Source: a virus
Length of the DNA stretch: 32,460 bases
Virus record (IMG/VR): IMGVR_UViG_3300027816_000278
Location: 1 to 32,460 of that record
Direction: 5' to 3' (one strand)
Position 1 is the first letter of the stretch. Each line of letters opens with the position of its first letter. A model generated the notes under the pieces. It worked only from the letters and a program-made list of their open reading frames with translations. It was not told where the DNA came from and searched no databases. The translations under genes were made by a program, and so were the position numbers. Positions 1,087 through 32,460 of this stretch are shown piece after piece.

Positions 1087-1743
1087 TCAGATCGAATAGG
1101 TAATTGAAAACATAATATCGCCACTGGCGTCCATTGGAACGGCACTATTGGCACCACCGCCTGTTGGATATTGATACAAAGAAATTGTTGAAGCGCCTGG
1201 TGCACCAAATGCTGTTACGACATTTCCAGCAGTCAACGAAATATTGTGCGGATATCCAATTGCGGCAGTGGGATGCAAAGCGACTTGTGCATTCGATGCG
1301 AATGGAAGACCGCTAATTTCCATGAAACCTGTTCCTGTGTGACCACTCCAAGAAAGATAGCCATACACAGTAACCATCGCGCCGATTTTTACATATCTCG
1401 CGGATTTACTTGAGTATGTTGCACTTCCAGCAGAAGTGGTTCCAGCAATAGCTATCGACGAACTGCAATCGCCTTCCTCGTAGTCATCTAGCGTGTTCGC
1501 ATCGCTCGATGCCGAGGCAGTCGCCGGGAACGAAATTCCAGCACCAGACGCAGCTGGCGTTGCGCCACCCACGCCGATGGTGGCCGGGAACTTCTTCACA
1601 TAGTTCTGAAGCTCTTCAGCGGTGATCTTCTTCGAGCGATCAGCAGCAGCTGCTTCGCTGATGTCAACGATGTAGAGCAGGTCACCCGTGGCAGTGTTTG
1701 CGCCCGTCAGCGACGTGAGCGCGGATACGGCCTTGTCAGTCAT
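1087..1743 (-). CDS. Fibre- or spike-like structural protein
   Basis: This is a 218-residue protein. Its N-terminal 50 residues (ALTSLTGANTATGDLLYIVD, then KKITAEELQNYVKK) match a module that begins many phage fibre or appendage proteins. The remainder is rich in Ser, Thr, Gly and Ala with short beta strands, ending in a probable beta-sandwich (YVKIGAMVTVYGYLSWSG, MEISGLPF). ATG 1743 follows GGAGAG and lies one base after the stop of the upstream gene. The C-terminal half is markedly AT-richer than the genome (about 40-48% GC in blocks counted by hand), as expected for an exchanged receptor-binding tip. Host recognition is inferred, not shown. Confidence 0.7.
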   Translation of the reverse strand: MTDKAVSALTSLTGANTATGDLLYIVDISEAAAADRSKKITAEELQNYVKKFPATIGVGGATPAASGAGISFPATASASSDANTLDDYEEGDCSSSIAIAGTTSAGSATYSSKSARYVKIGAMVTVYGYLSWSGHTGTGFMEISGLPFASNAQVALHPTAAIGYPHNISLTAGNVVTAFGAPGASTISLYQYPTGGGANSAVPMDASGDIMFSITYSI

Positions 1744-1744
1744 T

Positions 1745-2050
1745 TCAACTCTCCAAAAGTAAGAATTCCAAGTCCTCAAGCAGGGCGTCGTATCCGCTCT
1801 CGAGCTCGAGATTGTCGAAGTAGATCTCGTCGTTCTCGAACAGCAGATAAGACATGTCTTCCAGCAGCACGTTGCCACCGCCCTCCAACTCGACGTTGTA
1901 GGAGAGGTAGTCGGTGGTCTCTAGCAGCAGGTATCCCAGATCCTCGAGCAGGATGCCGCCACCGTCTTCCAGCCGCAGTACCGATGGAAACTCAATGCCG
2001 CCCCCAAACCCGCCAAAGTGCGAGAGCTTGAGGTTGATGCCGATGAGCAT
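1745..2050 (-). CDS. Acidic protein of tandem 28-residue LLLED-type repeats
   Basis: This is a 101-residue, very acidic, Leu-rich protein. After a Gly-rich lead it has three tandem repeats starting at residues 27, 55 and 83. The first two are exactly 28 residues, the last is cut after 19. The consensus is LExGxxxLLEDxxYLLLE followed by a variable stretch. The regular Leu/Glu pattern suggests a beta-solenoid or stacked-hairpin fold. A related LLLESG...LLTEDG...MLLEHGG stretch occurs inside tail tubular protein B of this phage, so a structural role is likely. There is no good ribosome site; the ATG follows the preceding stop by one base, suggesting reinitiation. Confidence 0.75.
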   Translation of the reverse strand: MLIGINLKLSHFGGFGGGIEFPSVLRLEDGGGILLEDLGYLLLETTDYLSYNVELEGGGNVLLEDMSYLLFENDEIYFDNLELESGYDALLEDLEFLLLES

Positions 2051-2051
2051 G

Positions 2052-2306
2052 TCAGATCAGCCCGACGATGCTCGTCGCGGTTGTGCCAGTTGACCAGACC
2101 CTCACGGCCATCACCGGAAGGATCGATCCGGCCTGGACAGCATTGAAAGTCGTGGCGTTGCCCAGCGTGTCGGTGATCTTCACGTTGCCAGCACCGCCGA
2201 TGTAGAGCGCCCGCACCGGCGCCGCCAGGTCAGCATCAGCCGGGGAGATTGAGATCGCACCGATGGCGACAGAATCCGGCGTGGTGGGGAAGGGTACTTG
2301 TGCCAT
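2052..2306 (-). CDS. Spike base protein, RCAP_Rcc01079-like (gene transfer agent type)
   Basis: This is an 84-residue protein with the layout recalled for the spike base family of the Rhodobacter gene transfer agent and many phages: an AISISPADADL segment, ALYIGGAGNVKI, an NAVQAGSILPV segment, RVWSTGTTATSIVGL at the end. The family is thought to form the base on which head or tail spikes sit. ATG 2306 follows AGGAAAGTGAC. An in-frame upstream start would overlap the previous gene and is unlikely. Its neighbours are the LLLED repeat protein and a fibre-like protein, consistent with an appendage module. Confidence 0.72.
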   Translation of the reverse strand: MAQVPFPTTPDSVAIGAISISPADADLAAPVRALYIGGAGNVKITDTLGNATTFNAVQAGSILPVMAVRVWSTGTTATSIVGLI

Positions 2307-4791: not shown

Positions 4792-6336
4792 TCAAGCAAA
4801 CACGTCAAAGTCACTGGATGCTGTAGTGGCTTGTATCAGTGGAGCGCCTGCCATGTTGCTCTTTCGCACCATCCGGTTGTACTCGCCACCGCCCAGCATC
4901 AGGTAGCCGAATGAGTCGCCAATGTGCGAGTGCTCATTCTTATTAGGCGTATCCCTGAAGCGTTCCTGGCCAGCGCCGATGCTCACCCGTTTGAAGTGAT
5001 ACCCACCTCCCAGGGCTTTGCGTAGGAGCTTGCAGGAGCGATTGACGATCAACCCTGGCTTACCGTTCACCAGGCGCTGCATGGGCGCTGCAGCGGCTTC
5101 CCTGCGTACCTTGAAGTCGTTGCTGGCAGTGGGTTGTGCTCGTAGGCCGAGTGTCTTCAGGAAGTCGAAGCTGGTGACCTCGTAGATGGCATCCCTGGCC
5201 ATGCCGGCAGGATCCCCCCACAGCATGACCTGGTGGTTTGGATACCGCTGGTTGAGCTCTGCCAGTAGCTGCAGCCCGAACCGCTCGAGGCCCATGTCGA
5301 AGGTGACGATCTCATGGTGGATCAGCCAGCGGCCGTTGGGTAACCGCTGCCCGATGGTGGCTGCAGGGGTCAGACCAAAGTCCAGGCCGATCTGGATCGG
5401 TACGCCAGGCTCGACCTCGGTGTCGCCAGACATGCTGGCATCGTCGTACTCTGGCCAGACGGGCCTGCCTTCTTGGACGTAGGTGTACTGACCAGCGGCA
5501 TAGCAGCGGATCCAGTCCAGGTTCTTGCCTGGCAGCATCTGCGCGTAGTACCCGGCAGGCAGGTTGTTGATGTTCTCTGCCTTCGGGTTGAGCTTCCACC
5601 ACTTGCCTGCAGCAAAGACGTGGTCGTTCGCCTCGGGGTTCTCCGGCAGGTCATCAGCAGGAACCTCGACGACACCGCCTGGCTGCTTCCAAAACTTCCA
5701 CCCCTGTGGCTTTTCCTTCTCGGCCATGTTGTGCCACCAGTGGTCGTCATCCATCGGGTTCGTATCCATCCAGATCCCGTGCCAGGACGCGCCACCATCA
5801 CGCTTCGTGGGATACCTACCAACCCGGTGCGTGAGGCCGTCTATGACCGCTTTGGGGAGCTCTCGGGCCTCGTTGACCCATGCGCCTGTGAGCTCGAGCG
5901 AGAGCAGCTTCCTGACATCCTTCGGCTGATCGAGCGCCAGGAAGATGACCTCACAGTCGATGCCTGCAGCGTCACCGCGGGCGGGCAGTCTGATGTGATG
6001 TGTGATCGGTGGCGTCCAGAGCAGATTGCCAAAGGTCGACTCTGGGAACAGATCCAGCCAGGTCTTGATGGTGGTGGTCTTCAGCATCGGGTAGCTGTTT
6101 CTGACCACGGCCCAGCGCGTGTAGCGGATGTTGTCGATGGGGGAGGGCTTCTGTTTGACGGCCTGGATGAAGATCCTGGCAGCGCAGGCGTAAGACTTCC
6201 CAGAGCCCACTGGCCCCATCATGCCCTGCACGAATGACTTGCTGCTGATGAAGTCAAAGATGGTGGGCGATTCGCTGAAGTCGAGCTTCAGCCCCGTGAC
6301 CGGCACGCTCTTGTCAGAGGCCTGCTTGGTTCTCAC
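4792..6336 (-). CDS. terL: Terminase large subunit
   Basis: This is the 514-residue motor ATPase and nuclease that pumps DNA through the portal and cuts concatemers. The ATPase domain has the Walker A motif GPVGSGKS at residues 41-48 and a Walker-B-like region ending in GAWVNEARELP near 151-161. The nuclease domain shows GLDFGLTPAATI near 317-328 and WGDPAG near 373-378, with the acidic residues expected for the RNase H-like metal site, and a late HSHIGDSFGYL. The start is GTG 6336, overlapping the preceding stop (GTGA). Length and domain order are normal. It closes an operon that begins with the small terminase. Confidence 0.95.
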   Translation of the reverse strand: MRTKQASDKSVPVTGLKLDFSESPTIFDFISSKSFVQGMMGPVGSGKSYACAARIFIQAVKQKPSPIDNIRYTRWAVVRNSYPMLKTTTIKTWLDLFPESTFGNLLWTPPITHHIRLPARGDAAGIDCEVIFLALDQPKDVRKLLSLELTGAWVNEARELPKAVIDGLTHRVGRYPTKRDGGASWHGIWMDTNPMDDDHWWHNMAEKEKPQGWKFWKQPGGVVEVPADDLPENPEANDHVFAAGKWWKLNPKAENINNLPAGYYAQMLPGKNLDWIRCYAAGQYTYVQEGRPVWPEYDDASMSGDTEVEPGVPIQIGLDFGLTPAATIGQRLPNGRWLIHHEIVTFDMGLERFGLQLLAELNQRYPNHQVMLWGDPAGMARDAIYEVTSFDFLKTLGLRAQPTASNDFKVRREAAAAPMQRLVNGKPGLIVNRSCKLLRKALGGGYHFKRVSIGAGQERFRDTPNKNEHSHIGDSFGYLMLGGGEYNRMVRKSNMAGAPLIQATTASSDFDVFA

Positions 6337-12006: not shown

Positions 12007-12320
12007 GCCTCGACGGTCGGACAATCAAAGAGCAGCAGATGGGCCTGTTCGAGGTGCAGCACGCTGACCTGCTCGAGCGGTGCCGGGCAGCGGCCATCGT
12101 GTTCGCCCGCCAGCACGGTTTCGTCAGTATCAATGAAGTACGCGAGGCCGTCACCCTGCCGCCTGGCATTCACCCTAGCCTGCTGGGCGCGGTCTTCCGC
12201 ACCCGCCAGTTTCGCGCCATCGGATACACCGAGGCGCATCACCCGGCCGCGCACGCTCGAGTCGTGCGGGTCTATGCTTTACAGGAGACGCACGATGGTC
12301 AGCAAAGTAACCCCCGATGA
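12003..12320 (+). CDS. Small helical protein, unknown
   Basis: This is a 105-residue protein from ATG 12003, overlapping the upstream stop. It begins with a charged helix region (IKEQQMGLFEVQHADLLERC). Short helices follow around SINEVREAVTLPPG and LLGAVFRT that could form a winged-helix-like DNA-binding domain, which is speculative. It overlaps the start of the exonuclease gene by 26 bases. Confidence 0.75.
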   Translation: MSLDGRTIKEQQMGLFEVQHADLLERCRAAAIVFARQHGFVSINEVREAVTLPPGIHPSLLGAVFRTRQFRAIGYTEAHHPAAHARVVRVYALQETHDGQQSNPR

Positions 12321-13248
12321 CATGCTCAGCGCCAGCAGATTGCCGGCGCTCATGGGGCTGTCGAAGTACCGTTCGCCGAACGATGAGCTCCAGTACAGCA
12401 TCGGCGCCATGCAGGGCGAGAACGTCCGATCGGATGGCAACGAAGCGATGGCCTGGGGCAATGAGCTCGAGCCCATTATCCTGCGCGAGGCCGCACGCCG
12501 GCTGCGCCTGATCGACCTGGTCACCGATCACCCTGCTGCCCGCTATCACCCCGACGTGCCGCTCTGCTGCAGCCTGGACGGCACCGCTGACGGTGGCGGG
12601 CAGATCATCACCACTGACCCGGACGCCGGGATCTACGTCATCGGCCAGGATCAGATCGAACTTGTAGGCACAGGCGTGCTCGAGGCCAAGCTGACCAGCG
12701 TCAGCCCGGAAGACACGCCAGCCCTGTACCGTGGCCCGATCCAGCTGCAGGCCCAGATGGACATCATCCAGGCCCGCTGGGGCTGCATCGCCGTGCTCTA
12801 TCAGGGCACCGAGCTCCGGCTATTCCTTTTCGCTCCGCACCAGCCGCTCGTCGACCGGATCTATGGCCTGGCCACCGACTTCCAGCGCCGGCTGGATGTC
12901 TGGAAGAAGAAGCAGATCATCGACTGGTATCAGCCGATCAACAGCAAGGATGCCGATCGCATGTTCCCGCAGGCCGATGAAGCATCGATCGATTTGGGCA
13001 GCGAGGGCGAGCGCCTAGCGCGAGAAATTCTCGAGGCCAAGAAGACGATCACCAAGGCATCCGCTGACCAGGAAGAGGCCGAGAAAAAATTGAAGACGAT
13101 GCTGCGCACTGCCAACCGTGGCACCGCCGGCAACCTCGAGATCAAGTGGCCGATGCGCAACTACGCTGCGACGCCGCAAAAAATCGTCCCCGCAAAGGCT
13201 GCGTACAGCGTTCGACAATCCACTTTATCAGTGAAGGAAATGAAATGA
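12295..13248 (+). CDS. YqaJ-family viral exonuclease
   Basis: This is a 317-residue nuclease of the YqaJ/lambda-exonuclease (PD-(D/E)XK) fold, the partner of a RecT-type annealase. It degrades one strand from double-strand ends and leaves 3' tails for annealing. Motifs in order are RLPALMGLSKY (15-25), GNELEP with Glu57 and Glu59, SLDGTAD with Asp95, and LEAK with Glu130 and Lys132, completing the D-ExK site. The C-terminal third is a charged coiled coil. ATG 12295 follows AGGAGA. It overlaps recT by ATGA, the usual operon arrangement. Confidence 0.93.
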   Translation: MVSKVTPDDMLSASRLPALMGLSKYRSPNDELQYSIGAMQGENVRSDGNEAMAWGNELEPIILREAARRLRLIDLVTDHPAARYHPDVPLCCSLDGTADGGGQIITTDPDAGIYVIGQDQIELVGTGVLEAKLTSVSPEDTPALYRGPIQLQAQMDIIQARWGCIAVLYQGTELRLFLFAPHQPLVDRIYGLATDFQRRLDVWKKKQIIDWYQPINSKDADRMFPQADEASIDLGSEGERLAREILEAKKTITKASADQEEAEKKLKTMLRTANRGTAGNLEIKWPMRNYAATPQKIVPAKAAYSVRQSTLSVKEMK

Positions 13249-23640: not shown

Positions 23641-25923
23641 TCAGGTTCCTGAGTAGACCGCGATGCGGTAGTCAAGACCGAGCAGCGTCATCTTGAGCGG
23701 CAGGGTCTGCTCGATCTCGATGGCCTGTTCGCGGTCGTAGCCCAGCACGCCGTTCACGCGCTTGATGCCGGTAAAGGTTGGAACCGGCTCATCCAGCAGC
23801 GGGTTGTCCATCAGCCGGAACGCGACCGGCTGGTCATTGATCACAAGCTCCTGAGTCTCTGACACGATCGCGTTGATCTCGACGATCCGCTTCTTGAAGC
23901 TGATGCGCGACCCGGTCTGCAGTTGGATCTCTGCCGGCATCGTCTTGCAGTAGACCGTGAAGGGCAGGCCGACCTCGTAGGTGTAGACCGATGCCCGGTC
24001 GAACGTCACGGTGCCAGCGGCGCTCACTTCCTCGTCGCCCTGCGGCACCCCGTCGCAGATCACGTTGACGATCTCATTGATCATCGGCAGACCAGACGCG
24101 CCAGATGCAGCGCCGCCGGTGACCGCGCAGTCGGTGTACAGGTTGTCGTCGAAGAGCTCGACGAAATACTTCGGCCCACCATGCTCGAGCAGCATCGGCT
24201 CACCGTCCTCGGTCAGCAGGTGACTGCCGCTCTCAAGCAGCAGGTCTGCAGCCGCGATGCGCCTGGTCACCGTGTAGATGTCGGTCACGTCGATGCCGAC
24301 ATCGATGAAGTCGCCAGTGGTGATGTACTCGGATGGCGCAGTGATCTGCTGGCTGCGCATGACGCTGAACGCTGCCATGCTGCCGTCGTCGGTGTTGGTG
24401 ATCAGCAGCAGGTCACCTTCCTCGGTGCTGGTCGCCCTGCGCATGGCGATCCGCTGCGGCCCCTTCAAAAGGTGGCCAGACAGCAGCGAGATCCTCTGGG
24501 TGATGTACGTCAGCTGCGTGTCGTTGAAAACGAACTCGTTGAGCGACTTGCCCTGGCGCTGGATGTAGACCGATCCCGACTCGAGCGCCTGCACCCGCGT
24601 GCCAGGCTTGATGCCGTTCTTGCTCACGTTCTTGAACGTGAACGTCAGCGGCGTGATTGGATCGCTTCCCTGCTGCGGGACATAGAACTCGCCGCCGGTC
24701 GTGAACACCTGGAAGTCGCGGCCGCTGATGATGTCGGTGATGACGTTCAGGTCGTTGGTGTCGAGCGTGGCCTCGAGCGCGTCATCGTCCAGGTTCTCGG
24801 TCGGGACGAAGTCATAGAAGAGGCCGATCTTCGAACCCCAGATGGTGCTCGGCCGAGACTTGCTGCCGCCAAAGTACAGGCGCCCCTCGTGGAACGTAAC
24901 CGTGCGCGGCCATCCCTTGTCTGAGCTCCAGACATCCACATACCCGTGCTCGAGCTCCCAGCGGCCAGCATCGATCGCGCTGGCGTTGAAGAATGGGTAC
25001 TCGGTCACCGCCTCGACCACCGTGCTCGAGACGTAACGCAGGATCCTGGCGCGGCCCTGCGGGCTGGCGTTGACGTACTGGTTGACCGACTGCGTCGTCC
25101 AGGTCGTGATCTCGTAGTTGCTGGTGGCATCAGGCGCCGTCGTCCAGGCTTCGGCAACCGTCGCGACTTTGGTGCTGCCGACATAGTCCTCGATCAGCCT
25201 GATCTGGCCCGAACCCGTGCCGCTGGTGATCGTGACGTACATGCCGTTGTAGACATCGTCGGTGGCGCTCGCGGTCGACTTCAGCGTGATCGTGGTCGTC
25301 GATCCGGCCTGCGCTGCGCCACTGTCGTGGTGAGTCGTCGAGGCCGTCAGCGTGATGTTGCCGCTCACCGCGCTTGGCGTGAGCGTCGAACCGTTGTTCG
25401 TATGGAAGTCGATGTTGAAGGCGTACTTCGGGATCGAGTCGAACGTAATCGTCGTGGCCGTCCAGGCCGTGTCGCTGGTGCGCGTGATCCGCACCGGCTG
25501 CAGATCCGGGTGGACAACGATCAGCGTGTCAGCCGACTGTGTCCAACACATGTCGTCGACAATGCTGCTGCCAATGCTGGTCGTCAGGTAGTTATTGCCG
25601 CTGCCGTTGATGTTGGTCTGCACCACGCCGTTCTTGATGATGTACATGCGGTTGTGCGTGAACACCAGCATGTAGGAGTCATCGACCGAGAACTGGAACG
25701 GCACCAGGCGCACGCCGTTGCCGGCGCTGCTCGCCCCGCTGTTGGGGAGCTCGAGGATGTACTTGGTGCCTGGCCGGCGCTTCAACCCACCCTGGGGCTG
25801 GATCAGCACATTGGTAGCCTTGGCCAGCGCGTTGTTGTAGGCCTGCAGATCAACCCGTGCACGCAGCAGCGGATCGAGCTCACCCGTCGAGAAGTTGCTC
25901 TGCAGTTCGACAAATCGCGGCAC
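23641..25923 (-). CDS. Tail tubular protein B (nozzle)
   Basis: This is a 760-residue tail nozzle protein equivalent to T7 gp12. Six copies close the tail tip and hold fibres. Early motifs are FSTGELDPLLRARVDLQAYNNALAKATN-like sequence and QGGLKRRPGTKY. The middle carries a large beta-rich insertion. GRDFQVFTTGGEFYVP and LSGHLLKGPQRIAMRRATS mark the conserved C-terminal half. Around residues 556-577 it holds an LLLESG/LLTEDG/MLLEHGG insertion like the repeats of the 101-residue protein. The start is GTG 25923, one base after the tail A stop, with GAGGTACTGAC upstream. Confidence 0.92.
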   Translation of the reverse strand: MPRFVELQSNFSTGELDPLLRARVDLQAYNNALAKATNVLIQPQGGLKRRPGTKYILELPNSGASSAGNGVRLVPFQFSVDDSYMLVFTHNRMYIIKNGVVQTNINGSGNNYLTTSIGSSIVDDMCWTQSADTLIVVHPDLQPVRITRTSDTAWTATTITFDSIPKYAFNIDFHTNNGSTLTPSAVSGNITLTASTTHHDSGAAQAGSTTTITLKSTASATDDVYNGMYVTITSGTGSGQIRLIEDYVGSTKVATVAEAWTTAPDATSNYEITTWTTQSVNQYVNASPQGRARILRYVSSTVVEAVTEYPFFNASAIDAGRWELEHGYVDVWSSDKGWPRTVTFHEGRLYFGGSKSRPSTIWGSKIGLFYDFVPTENLDDDALEATLDTNDLNVITDIISGRDFQVFTTGGEFYVPQQGSDPITPLTFTFKNVSKNGIKPGTRVQALESGSVYIQRQGKSLNEFVFNDTQLTYITQRISLLSGHLLKGPQRIAMRRATSTEEGDLLLITNTDDGSMAAFSVMRSQQITAPSEYITTGDFIDVGIDVTDIYTVTRRIAAADLLLESGSHLLTEDGEPMLLEHGGPKYFVELFDDNLYTDCAVTGGAASGASGLPMINEIVNVICDGVPQGDEEVSAAGTVTFDRASVYTYEVGLPFTVYCKTMPAEIQLQTGSRISFKKRIVEINAIVSETQELVINDQPVAFRLMDNPLLDEPVPTFTGIKRVNGVLGYDREQAIEIEQTLPLKMTLLGLDYRIAVYSGT

Positions 25924-29224: not shown

Positions 29225-31129
29225 TCAGAAGAATGTGATTACCCGGCAATAACCATTGCCACCGTTGCCACCAGCGCCGGAGTTGACTGCGTGACCAGCA
29301 CCGCCGCCGCCACCGCCGCCTCCGGGGTATCCGCCGTTCCCACCAGCGCCAGCGGTGGTCGTTCCTGATCCACCGGCACCACCGCCATCACCACCTACAA
29401 AATAGGTGGTTGCGTTAGATCCATTTCCCCCACTGGCATTAGCGAATCCAAACGCGCCCCCACCACCAGTGGTGGCTGTTGAAGAAGTCAAAAGTGAACC
29501 ACCTTTCCCACCGGCTTGTCCGTTTGTAGCTGTAGTGCTCGCTGCGCCAAAACCAGCCGCTCCTGCACCACCTCCTGGCCTATATCCTCCGCGACTACCA
29601 GATGTTCCATTATTTGAAGTTCCTGCTCCACCTGATGCCGATAAGTTATTGCTACCAGAAGCCAATTCTGCGAGACCGCCACCGCCATTTCCGGCTCCCC
29701 CAGATGTACTACTTCCGCCACTGCCCGATGTTCCTGGTCTAGCTGAACCCCATGAACCGAACGATGTTATGGTTCCATCGGTTCCGTTACTTCCATTGGT
29801 ATCGTCCGCAGTTTGTGCTGCGCCACCTGTGCCGCCAGCACCAACCGTCACCGTCTCAGTAGCTCCGAGAGCAGATGCCGGAATCCATAACTCTGTTCTT
29901 CCTCCAGCACCCCCACCGCCACCGCCAAAGGCGGCAGTAGCAGATGACCCGGATGCCCTTCGCCTCCCAGACGCACCGCCACCACCACCACCAAACATCA
30001 ACACATAAACCAGCTTAGCTCCCGCTGGCTTAGTCCAAGTAGATGTGCCTGTACTTGTAAATTCTTGGATGTCTGCACTAGATATTCCGCCGCCACTCGC
30101 CGCAGCCCATGCGACACCAGCAGCAGCAGACGAATCAGCAGTCAGCACAAATCCATTGGTGCCAGCAGCAACACGCACATTGTCTGTGCCGTTGTGAGCA
30201 ATCAAATCACCCTTACTCGTTGTCGGCGCAAGCGCATCAAACGCATCAGTTTGTGTTGTCTGTCCTGTGCCACCGTTAGCAATAGCAACAGTGCCGGTGA
30301 CGTTCGCAGCCGTTCCTGTTGTGTTCTGATTCAACGTCGGAATATCAGCGGCGACAATCGCTCTAAACGTCGGAACACCTGCCGTGCCATTAGGAGCGGC
30401 CAGGACAAAGTTGGCCGTCTTGCTGGCATACGGGTTTTGTGTGTCGCCGTAATTGCCTGCCAGGCTAATGACTGGCGTTGCGCCGCCAGATGAAACGATA
30501 GGCGCAGTCCCGCTAACAGATGTCACGCCACCGCCAGCCACCCAGGCCAACGAAGTGCCATCTGTGCCAATAACCTTGCCGGCGTTCGATGCCTGTTGTT
30601 TGACAAGATCGCCAACCTCAACCAGCTGCGCTTGGCGATCAAATAGTTTGTCATCTCGACCGCCGCCACCGCCGCCGGTCGGCATGATGATCCACTCGCC
30701 CCATTGGCCTGGCGCTTTCTCGAAGCGCAGCATGAGACCTTTCTTCTCATGCTTTGGCATCGGGCCGATCGGGCCTGCTGGGCCTTCTGGCCCTCGTGGC
30801 CCTGGCGGGCCATCCTCACCCTGGTAGCCTTTCTCGCCTTGCGGCCCCGCTGGGCCAACCAGCCCCTGTGGCCCCGTTGGGCCTACAGGGCCAGGGACAC
30901 CTCGCTCGCCTTGTAAACCTCGCGGCCCAACCGGCCCTTGTGGGCCTCGCAGTCCTGTGTCGCCTTTCTCGCCCTGTGGGCCTGGTACTGGGACAGTCTT
31001 TAGCAGAATCTGACCAGGATCGCCCTTCTCGCCCTTCTCACCTTTCGGCCCTTGCTTTGCCTGATCGCGAGCTTGCCTGGCTAGATCCAGTGCTTTTGCC
31101 GCTGCGGCACGGGCGACATCATCACGCAT
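29225..31129 (-). CDS. Collagen-like and polyglycine tail fibre/adhesin
   Basis: This is a 634-residue fibre of three parts. After a helical start, residues 27-39 and 50-122 are Gly-X-Y collagen triplets (5 and 25 glycines) rich in GPQ, GEK and GPP. Residues about 215-345 are beta-structured with [18 protein letters not shown] and [15 protein letters not shown], common in fibre shafts. From about 365 a [15 protein letters not shown] strand leads into a Gly-rich domain with many GGGG runs ending in YCRVITFF, resembling polyglycine-sandwich adhesin tips such as S16 gp38. ATG 31129 overlaps the portal stop and has GGAGG upstream. The C-terminal DNA is AT-richer than average. Confidence 0.85.
30757..31051 (-). 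repeat. Collagen-type Gly-X-Y coding repeats
   Basis: This is a stretch of 9-bp-periodic sequence encoding about 30 Gly-X-Y triplets in two blocks separated by ILLKTVPVP. The glycine codons repeat every third codon without break from residue 50 to 122. Variation in number would be expected by recombination between repeats. Confidence 0.9.
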
Positions 31130-32460
31130 TGAGCGCCTCCATTAGGCGCTGATCGACGTTCTGGCCTTCTGGTACGCCAGCGGCCTGCATCATTGCGTTC
31201 TGCATTGCCATCGCTTCCATCTGCCGGTTCTGGGCCTCTTCCATGAGCACGGCACGCTCCTCGCGGCTGTTGCGCACGCTGGATGGCACGCCGAGCTTGT
31301 CGCCGATGTAGTCGACCGCTGCGTCAGTCTTGAGCGCCAGCTGGCCGTCAGGGCCGAACCCTTGCATCAGCTGCGCGTACTGCAGGATCGCGTTGACCTC
31401 TTCCATGTTCTGGGCCATCGCGAGCGGGGCCACCGGCACCACCTTGACCTCGAGCCCGTTGACCCGGAGCGGCAGGTCGATCATGCCGCGCTCGTCCATG
31501 ACCTCGAGGATCTTGGCCACCAGCGGGATCATCGTCTCGTTGATGAGGCGGCCGAACGCGCTGCCCAGGTTCTGCGCGAGCTCCTTCATCCGCTCGACGA
31601 TCTCGGTGGCAGACCTGGCGCTCATGTTGTCAGGCGGCAGCGACTCATCCAGCAAGATCCGCTTGATGCTGGCCGTCAGGTCGTTGATCACCAGCTGGCT
31701 GACGTTGAAGTCGCCGGCACGGGTAAGGGGCTGCAGGCTGGCACCCTGGGGGCCACCGTTGCGGGCAACCGGGATGATGGCGCCAGGCACGATCTTGACC
31801 GTGTTGGGGTTCAGCACGCCATCGTCGGCAGCGGTATAGACACCGGCCACCGCAAGCGAAGCATTCTTCAGCAGGAGCTCTTTGGTCTTGTTGAGCGTCT
31901 TGATGTCGGGCAGCGCCGTGATCAGCGGGCCTCGACCGTAGATTTCGCCAGCGACCTTCATGTAGCGCGAGATCACCCAGGGCGAGGTTTTGCGGCGCCG
32001 GTAGACGATCTCGGTCTTGGTCAGCTTGTCGATGACGTGATAGCAGTAGTCACCACGCTTGTAGTCGTGGATGGTTGCCTCGATGAGCTCGATGTCATCG
32101 GTCGGCTTCTGCTCGATCCGGCGTGCGAGCTCCTCGCTGATCTTTGCATCCGGCCACTGGCGCTGGATCGACTCGCCCTTCATCCGCATCCGGCGATAGA
32201 CGTTGTCGACCTGGCCGTTGGCGCCTTCCTCGTAGCAGACCAGGAAGAGCGGCACCGGCACAAAGTTGATCGGCGTCACGTCGTCACCAGGCTGCACCAT
32301 CATGCAGGCCGTGCCGACCGCAAGATCCAGCAGGAACTCGCCGATCGCGATGTCGAAGTTGCTCTGCTTCAGCACCGCGAACATCTTGTCGGAGTATGCG
32401 TCGAGGATCGCCTGCGCCTGCCGCGAACGCTCGAGCGGAATCGACGGGCCAGGCTCAAGC
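31122..32460 (-). CDS. Portal protein, C-terminal part (continues from 443-1)
   Basis: These are the remaining residues of the portal, continuing from the fragment at 1-443. Residue 119 is encoded at 32384, giving a total of 538. Motifs include [40 protein letters not shown] and later [21 protein letters not shown], the last being a strong T7-connector-type signature. The stop at 31122 overlaps the collagen fibre start by 8 bases. Residue 106 is Arg in this copy and Gln in the other. Confidence 0.93.
32296..32460. repeat. Right copy of the 165-bp end repeat
   Basis: This matches bases 1-165 with one mismatch (C here at 32422). See the left copy. Joining the ends at this overlap restores the portal reading frame. 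Confidence 0.95.

Follow-up and report, generated by a model that had tools for sequence, protein, structure and literature searches.

In the branched receptor-binding-protein systems of Klebsiella phages, anchor domains or conserved peptides reportedly join a fibre to another part of the tail; we know of no three-unit repeat or residue code in these systems. A structurally described case is that of phage SU10 (structure named as PDB 7Z47), in which a "short tail fibre dock loop" of the nozzle protein gp17 holds a trimer of the fibre protein gp16, with Trp839, Trp847 and Trp857 of the loop forming a quasi-threefold array that fibre residues 23-25 clamp, according to the available part of the report (PMC9509320). 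We confirmed the three Trp and the fibre residues in the SU10 sequences. The docking principle is known already, once, by structure, from that part of the SU10 report, and the available part of the report on phage A-1(L) (PMC10966104) holds no comparable element.

Here, we describe a short Leu/Glu repeat that is probably a docking socket for a trimeric tail fibre, matched to it by a residue code. The repeat was studied in the window, i.e., the whole stretch of DNA analysed (32,460 bases), which is an uncultivated podovirus-like genome record. Judged by the nozzle protein (49% identity), its closest named relative is Methylophilales phage MEP301. The minus strand carries most of the structural genes, and pieces of the portal gene are present at both ends (an N-terminal ORF at 3-443 and the C-terminal part at 31122-32459, with a PHROG 332 match at 31122-32384), so that the record is a permuted or circular genome. 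The gene block of the repeat protein, hereafter P0001, sits between the terminase large subunit gene (4792-6336) and the portal. The features considered are the following:

1087..1743, minus strand: appendage (fibre-like) protein with the N-terminal anchor 'MTDKAVSALTSLTGANTATGDLLYIVDISE', directly downstream of P0001
1745..2050, minus strand: P0001, 101 aa, a Gly-rich N-terminus followed by three LLLExG modules
1751..1810, minus strand: P0001 module 3, residues 81-100, L-type (third profile domain, 7.5 bits)
1835..1894, minus strand: P0001 module 2, residues 53-72, L-type (A5 profile E 4.9e-4 at 1835-1888)
1919..1978, minus strand: P0001 module 1, residues 25-44, L-type (A5 profile E 0.018 at 1919-1972)
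2052..2306, minus strand: 84-aa protein directly upstream of P0001, in the same gained block (PHROG 12296 "tail fiber protein")
23641..25923, minus strand: P0002, nozzle / tail tubular protein B (PHROG 376, E 5e-112; PDB 8ck1 "Tail Nozzle", E 1.5e-38)
24184..24243, minus strand: nozzle LLLExG module, about residues 561-580 (A5 profile, 30 sequences, E = 6.3e-7)

In both SU10 and P0002, a nozzle loop carries three units in a row that resemble each other and are spaced by 8-10 residues. The SU10 dock, as far as the available part of its report goes, is made of Trp and hydrophobic contacts and has no LLExG motif, whereas the modules of P0001 and P0002 all lack Trp. Also unlike what that part describes for SU10, the putative socket has a charge code here, and it is found both as a separate protein with three sockets and as a tag at the C-terminus of unrelated proteins. 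The insert carrying the units lies ~180 residues before the C-terminus of the 760-residue P0002 (the model of which is of low confidence), compared to ~150 residues before that of the 1005-residue protein in SU10, where the dock loop belongs to propeller blade 1, ahead of the C-terminal platform part. With respect to the T7 gp12-like nozzle family (PHROG 376; PDB 8ck1), P0002 matches along its length and differs in a 23-residue insert. Neither gp17 nor gp16 scored with our module and anchor profiles, so we say that the loop would work like that of SU10, and membership of one family is not implied; the profile comparison of the nozzle with gp17 was also unsuccessful (A4 against gp17, probability 0.1). 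The Klebsiella branched systems, by their description, likewise link fibre to tail part by short sequence elements. In the literature searched, we found no description of the sequence family or of how widely it occurs, of the stand-alone and C-terminal forms or of the residue code, and no paper on the module was among the matches listed for the motif strings.

The minus-strand ORF at 1745-2050 encodes 101 aa, and its translation is as described in the earlier note. Its self-identity at lag 28 is high (z = 7.15; the maximum over lags 1-44 was reached in 0 of 5000 shuffles), and that at lag 8 is also elevated (z = 3.65), which indicates that each 28-residue copy is itself composed of about three 8-residue units. 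More precisely, a copy comprises one 20-residue module (three x-LLE-x-G-xx units) and a linker. The tandem 28-residue register proposed earlier, with starts at residues 27, 55 and 83, was recovered by the profile, but the third copy has only 19 residues. Identity among the copies is 14/28, 12/19 and 10/19 in protein and 55/84, 35/57 and 34/57 in DNA, so that the duplication is old. The first strands of the modules carry R or E where L is usual (LRLE, VELE, LELE). Orthologues of P0001 were found in 21 further IMG/VR loci and in the fragment L008, and dN/dS against four orthologues was 0.12-0.14, which indicates purifying selection; thus, P0001 is a gene and not a chance ORF. The orthologue in L009 is shorter by one unit (73 aa). 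A PDB search with P0001 gave nothing significant, and tblastn of P0001 and a multi-module protein against 50,697 phage records, with the low-complexity filter on, gave no match.

P0002 is a member of the T7 gp12-like nozzle family, with PHROG 376 homology over residues 5-756. Its module (LLLESGSH-LLTEDGEPM-LLEHGG) sits in the 23-residue loop insert, between "TDIYTVT" and "KYFVEL". The insert is present in the window and in 11 of 80 related viral loci, where this region has a length of 66 residues, versus 43 in the 69 loci and in MEP301, which are without it. AlphaFold2 reached a pLDDT of 31.9 on P0001 (ten sequences) and of 32.5 on the nozzle (30 sequences), the latter being confident at about residues 198-277 only; we base no claim on these models. 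Residues 198-277, approximately, form a second insert relative to MEP301, in which most 10-residue blocks have pLDDT 75-90.

The earlier note had reported an echo of the repeat in tail protein B. To this regard, a profile of 94 viral modules, none of them from the window, scored P0001 at 19.1 bits (E 3.2e-5, at residues 27-44, 55-72 and 83-100) and P0002 at 13.2 bits for its best domain (E 0.0022). The next best ORF of the window reached 2.7 bits, i.e., no third protein was found, and noise was at most 2.8 bits in reversed ORFs and 5.1 bits in 20 shuffled sets. The echo is real: the same module is recognized in both proteins by a profile that contains no window sequence.

In 18 records of this phage family, the nozzle module was accompanied by both P0001 and the anchor in six, and none of the three was present in the other twelve; this co-occurrence may derive from a single gain in one clade. 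The six carriers fall into two clades: in one, the nozzle module is strong and those of P0001 are weaker, and in the other the situation is reversed (nozzle copy 14.4 bits, partial; P0001 25.2 and 19.6 bits), as if docking were shifting between the nozzle and P0001.

The earlier note suggested looking for the repeat in other phages, and in IMG/VR the module is common; it ends small proteins or neck proteins, or sits within loops of tail proteins. The strict three-unit DNA pattern occurs there in at least 120 stretches; among the matches listed, 120 were stop-free, with the module at the protein end in 76, internal in 28 and near the N-terminus in 16. The module positions left free by the search pattern are conserved too. 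Carriers include lambda FII-like head-tail attachment proteins (PF05354), tail protein L (PF05100) and gp10-like stabilisation proteins (PF11134). Of 102 distinct runs, 96 contained three units and six contained two, and none had more (three being required by the searches); this near-fixed number fits a trimeric partner. In a 257-Gb cellular genome collection, 53 stretches matched, mostly other low-complexity repeats, and true copies were rare. No curated Pfam family covers the module in the proteins scanned, and a PDB search with the module profile gave nothing significant. The matches in L140, L145, L192, L207 and L218, being low-complexity or out of frame, were excluded from the profile and from the pairing tests described below, while L348 was added to the module set by hand.

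We also considered whether two modules per genome are a general rule. Nearly all of 38 records have one strict array, G029 having a second place and G014 a terminal copy. With the A5 profile, applied to 31 records (the window and two near relatives being left aside), a second module elsewhere was found in G012, G047, G029 and, weakly, G036, where G012 and G047 belong to one phage family. The rule was rejected, as few of the 31 records have a second module. The phages of G047 and G012 carry the module in tail protein L and, among their structural genes (L346 and L347, respectively), also have a putative ORF of 33 residues with a motif of the LLxE type. As in P0001, small proteins with three three-unit modules in tandem are present in L213 (three arrays) and L224 (arrays of LRLQDG and LLLEDG units).

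After a gene that ends in the module, the next gene mostly starts within a few bases, and its product starts with MADxKISxL..., a fibre-type N-terminus; in the window, the appendage gene 1087-1743 starts 2 nt past the stop of P0001. We built an anchor profile from 18 training sequences, taken from half of the C-terminal-module loci. An anchor was detected directly downstream of the module in 29/38 held-out loci and in 28/38 loci of the training half, and in 1/35 loci where the module is internal or N-terminal. In the 76 C-terminal-module loci (677 kb), 56 of the 62 anchor ORFs start between -70 and +120 nt from the stop of the module gene, an interval in which about 0.7 would be expected by random placement (our arithmetic); 20 of the 76 modules have no profile-detected anchor downstream. 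For the window region, five orthologues of 1087-1743 are recognised by the anchor profile (E 2e-4 to 3e-3), and the window's own copy, 88-93% identical to the orthologues in the anchor region, fails the 0.01 cut-off of the profile search.

Starting from the anchors, the reverse survey found a module in the adjacent upstream gene of 13/98 and anywhere in the locus sequence available in 19/98. The module is thus recognisable near few anchors, and most of them must use other or diverged sockets. When ten anchor proteins were compared with PHROGs, several of them had tail-fibre or minor-tail matches, outside the anchor; Pfam on the anchor itself in 16 anchor proteins gave nothing, and a PDB search with the anchor gave no hit. 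The orthologue of 1087-1743 in L009 ends in a Peptidase_S74 domain (E 5.3e-17), a C-terminal chaperone domain known from trimeric fibres, while the window protein has a different C-terminus with no Pfam match. Relatives lacking the socket have sequence that resembles 1087-1743 and 781-1044 far downstream of the nozzle gene (L039 at 11735, L042 at 11449 and L045 at 19154), where it adjoins, or is part of, a long fibre gene with an N-terminus of another type.

A further line of evidence comes from covariation between module and anchor. In R-type modules, each unit starts with Arg (RLLE). Among the 86 C-terminal rows, 65 were aligned and 21 were dropped, the downstream start being not KxSxL-like or outside -10..+40 nt. 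One anchor column held Glu in 14/14 rows with RLLE-type modules and in 0/51 rows with other modules (Fisher 1.6e-14), and in 9/9 versus 0/34 once anchors more than 50% identical were removed. With the 51 non-R modules, the residues at this column were Y (17), P (16), A (8), V (3), T (3) and one each of R, L, I and S. In an unbiased scan over 540 pairs of positions, module positions 0, 16 and 8 against the Glu column were at the top (z 16.6, 14.0 and 13.2), followed by a pair with z 5.7. Positions 0, 8 and 16 are equivalent sites in the three units, and their joint covariation with a single anchor column is expected if a three-unit chain docks a homotrimer. Six of the 14 R-type pairs came from a scan made after the hypothesis had been recorded, and all six have Glu. 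R-type carriers fall in 10 of the 43 carrier clusters, and no cluster contains both types. Fibres that are related to each other beyond the anchor include some of either type, each with the matching residue. Where the module and anchor genes lie apart, Glu was found in 3/3 R-type and in 0/11 other cases, as read by eye. R-type carriers without an adjoining anchor are L158, L165, L217, L353, L358 and L360. In the window, the corresponding residue is the following:

1672..1674, minus strand: Tyr24 of the 1087-1743 anchor, judged by eye to be the covarying column; Y as seen with L-type modules

Column letters in the 98-anchor survey are approximate, as the automatic reading took Glu for Asp in some anchors; the five anchors concerned were inspected. 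A distinct anchor subfamily, "TDL(V/I)EISESNG", with an apparent Glu at the coding column, occurs in L412, L419, L446, L455 and L457, for which no R-type or recognisable LLLExG module was found in the locus sequence available.

On the docking reading, one module of three 8-residue units (x-L-L-E-x-G-x-x) would offer a pseudo-threefold face on a single chain, and the three identical N-termini of a fibre trimer would grip it, one unit per chain. Each unit would place its first residue (L/I/V or R) opposite a fibre residue near position 24 (Y/P/A and others, or E, respectively). In this phage, the docked fibre would be the product of 1087-1743, with three sockets per P0001 and one per nozzle subunit. 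From the sequence comparisons, we infer a physical contact between socket and fibre, a 3:3 geometry and the presence of P0001 in the virion, where P0001 and the nozzle loop would act as parallel docks or P0001 would bridge nozzle and fibre. The earlier proposal that the shared motif is an interaction module is strongly supported, with the evidence pointing to P0001 and the nozzle both socketing the anchor of 1087-1743, rather than to P0001 binding the nozzle. Since both would be sockets for a third protein, they can be seen as alternative or parallel docks; only in this sense does the proposed docking mimicry hold, and not as one protein mimicking the other.

Among the other explanations, the one that survives best, although we consider it unlikely, is that P0001 is no virion protein but a chaperone that would fold or hold the N-terminus of the fibre and pass it to the nozzle loop, whose module P0001 would mimic. 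This would suit a small protein with three sockets on one chain, encoded directly ahead of the fibre gene, in a phage whose nozzle already has its own socket. However, elsewhere the module belongs to recognised structural proteins (PF05354, PF05100 and PF11134), and the clade in which the weaker nozzle copy is accompanied by stronger P0001 modules fits P0001 as a lasting dock. Still less credit can be given to a direct binding of the P0001 and nozzle modules to each other by beta-strand addition, with P0001 as a minor virion protein attached to the nozzle and the neighbouring fibre incidental: both proteins have the same module and were gained together, but in other phages it usually occupies a single place per genome, its partners are anchor genes and not further module genes, and it shows covariation with the anchor. 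A generic Leu/Glu beta-turn repeat, easily arising and without a specific partner, is a very improbable reading of the module, because, despite its simple composition and the lack of a curated Pfam family in the proteins scanned, its free pattern positions are conserved, it keeps to three units, the cellular collection contains few true copies, and the specific anchor pairing and covariation already contradict this reading.

Extending the docking reading beyond this phage, LLLExG could be a portable, charge-coded plug system of many unrelated tailed phages, with R/E and L/non-E as orthogonal codes and with P0001-like proteins multiplying the fibres; we give this broader proposal even chances. 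If true, a 20-residue plug on almost any neck or tail protein would recruit any trimeric fibre with a matching anchor, and small multi-socket proteins like P0001 would let more fibres attach at each point. For host-range evolution, the way in which fibres are attached to virions, and swapped between unrelated ones, is a central question that is still open. A readable socket code would make it possible to predict from sequence which fibre pairs with which virion protein, and such a short socket would give functions to many unannotated small proteins with a C-terminal module.

Two other genes of the window were recorded. A collagen-repeat fibre protein is encoded at 29225-31129. Its gene lies between those of the portal and the scaffold, as also in L019, and no similar gene was found at that place in the close relatives L021 and L022. 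A RecE-like exonuclease gene (PHROG 434, E 3.1e-30) is on the plus strand at 12133-13248.
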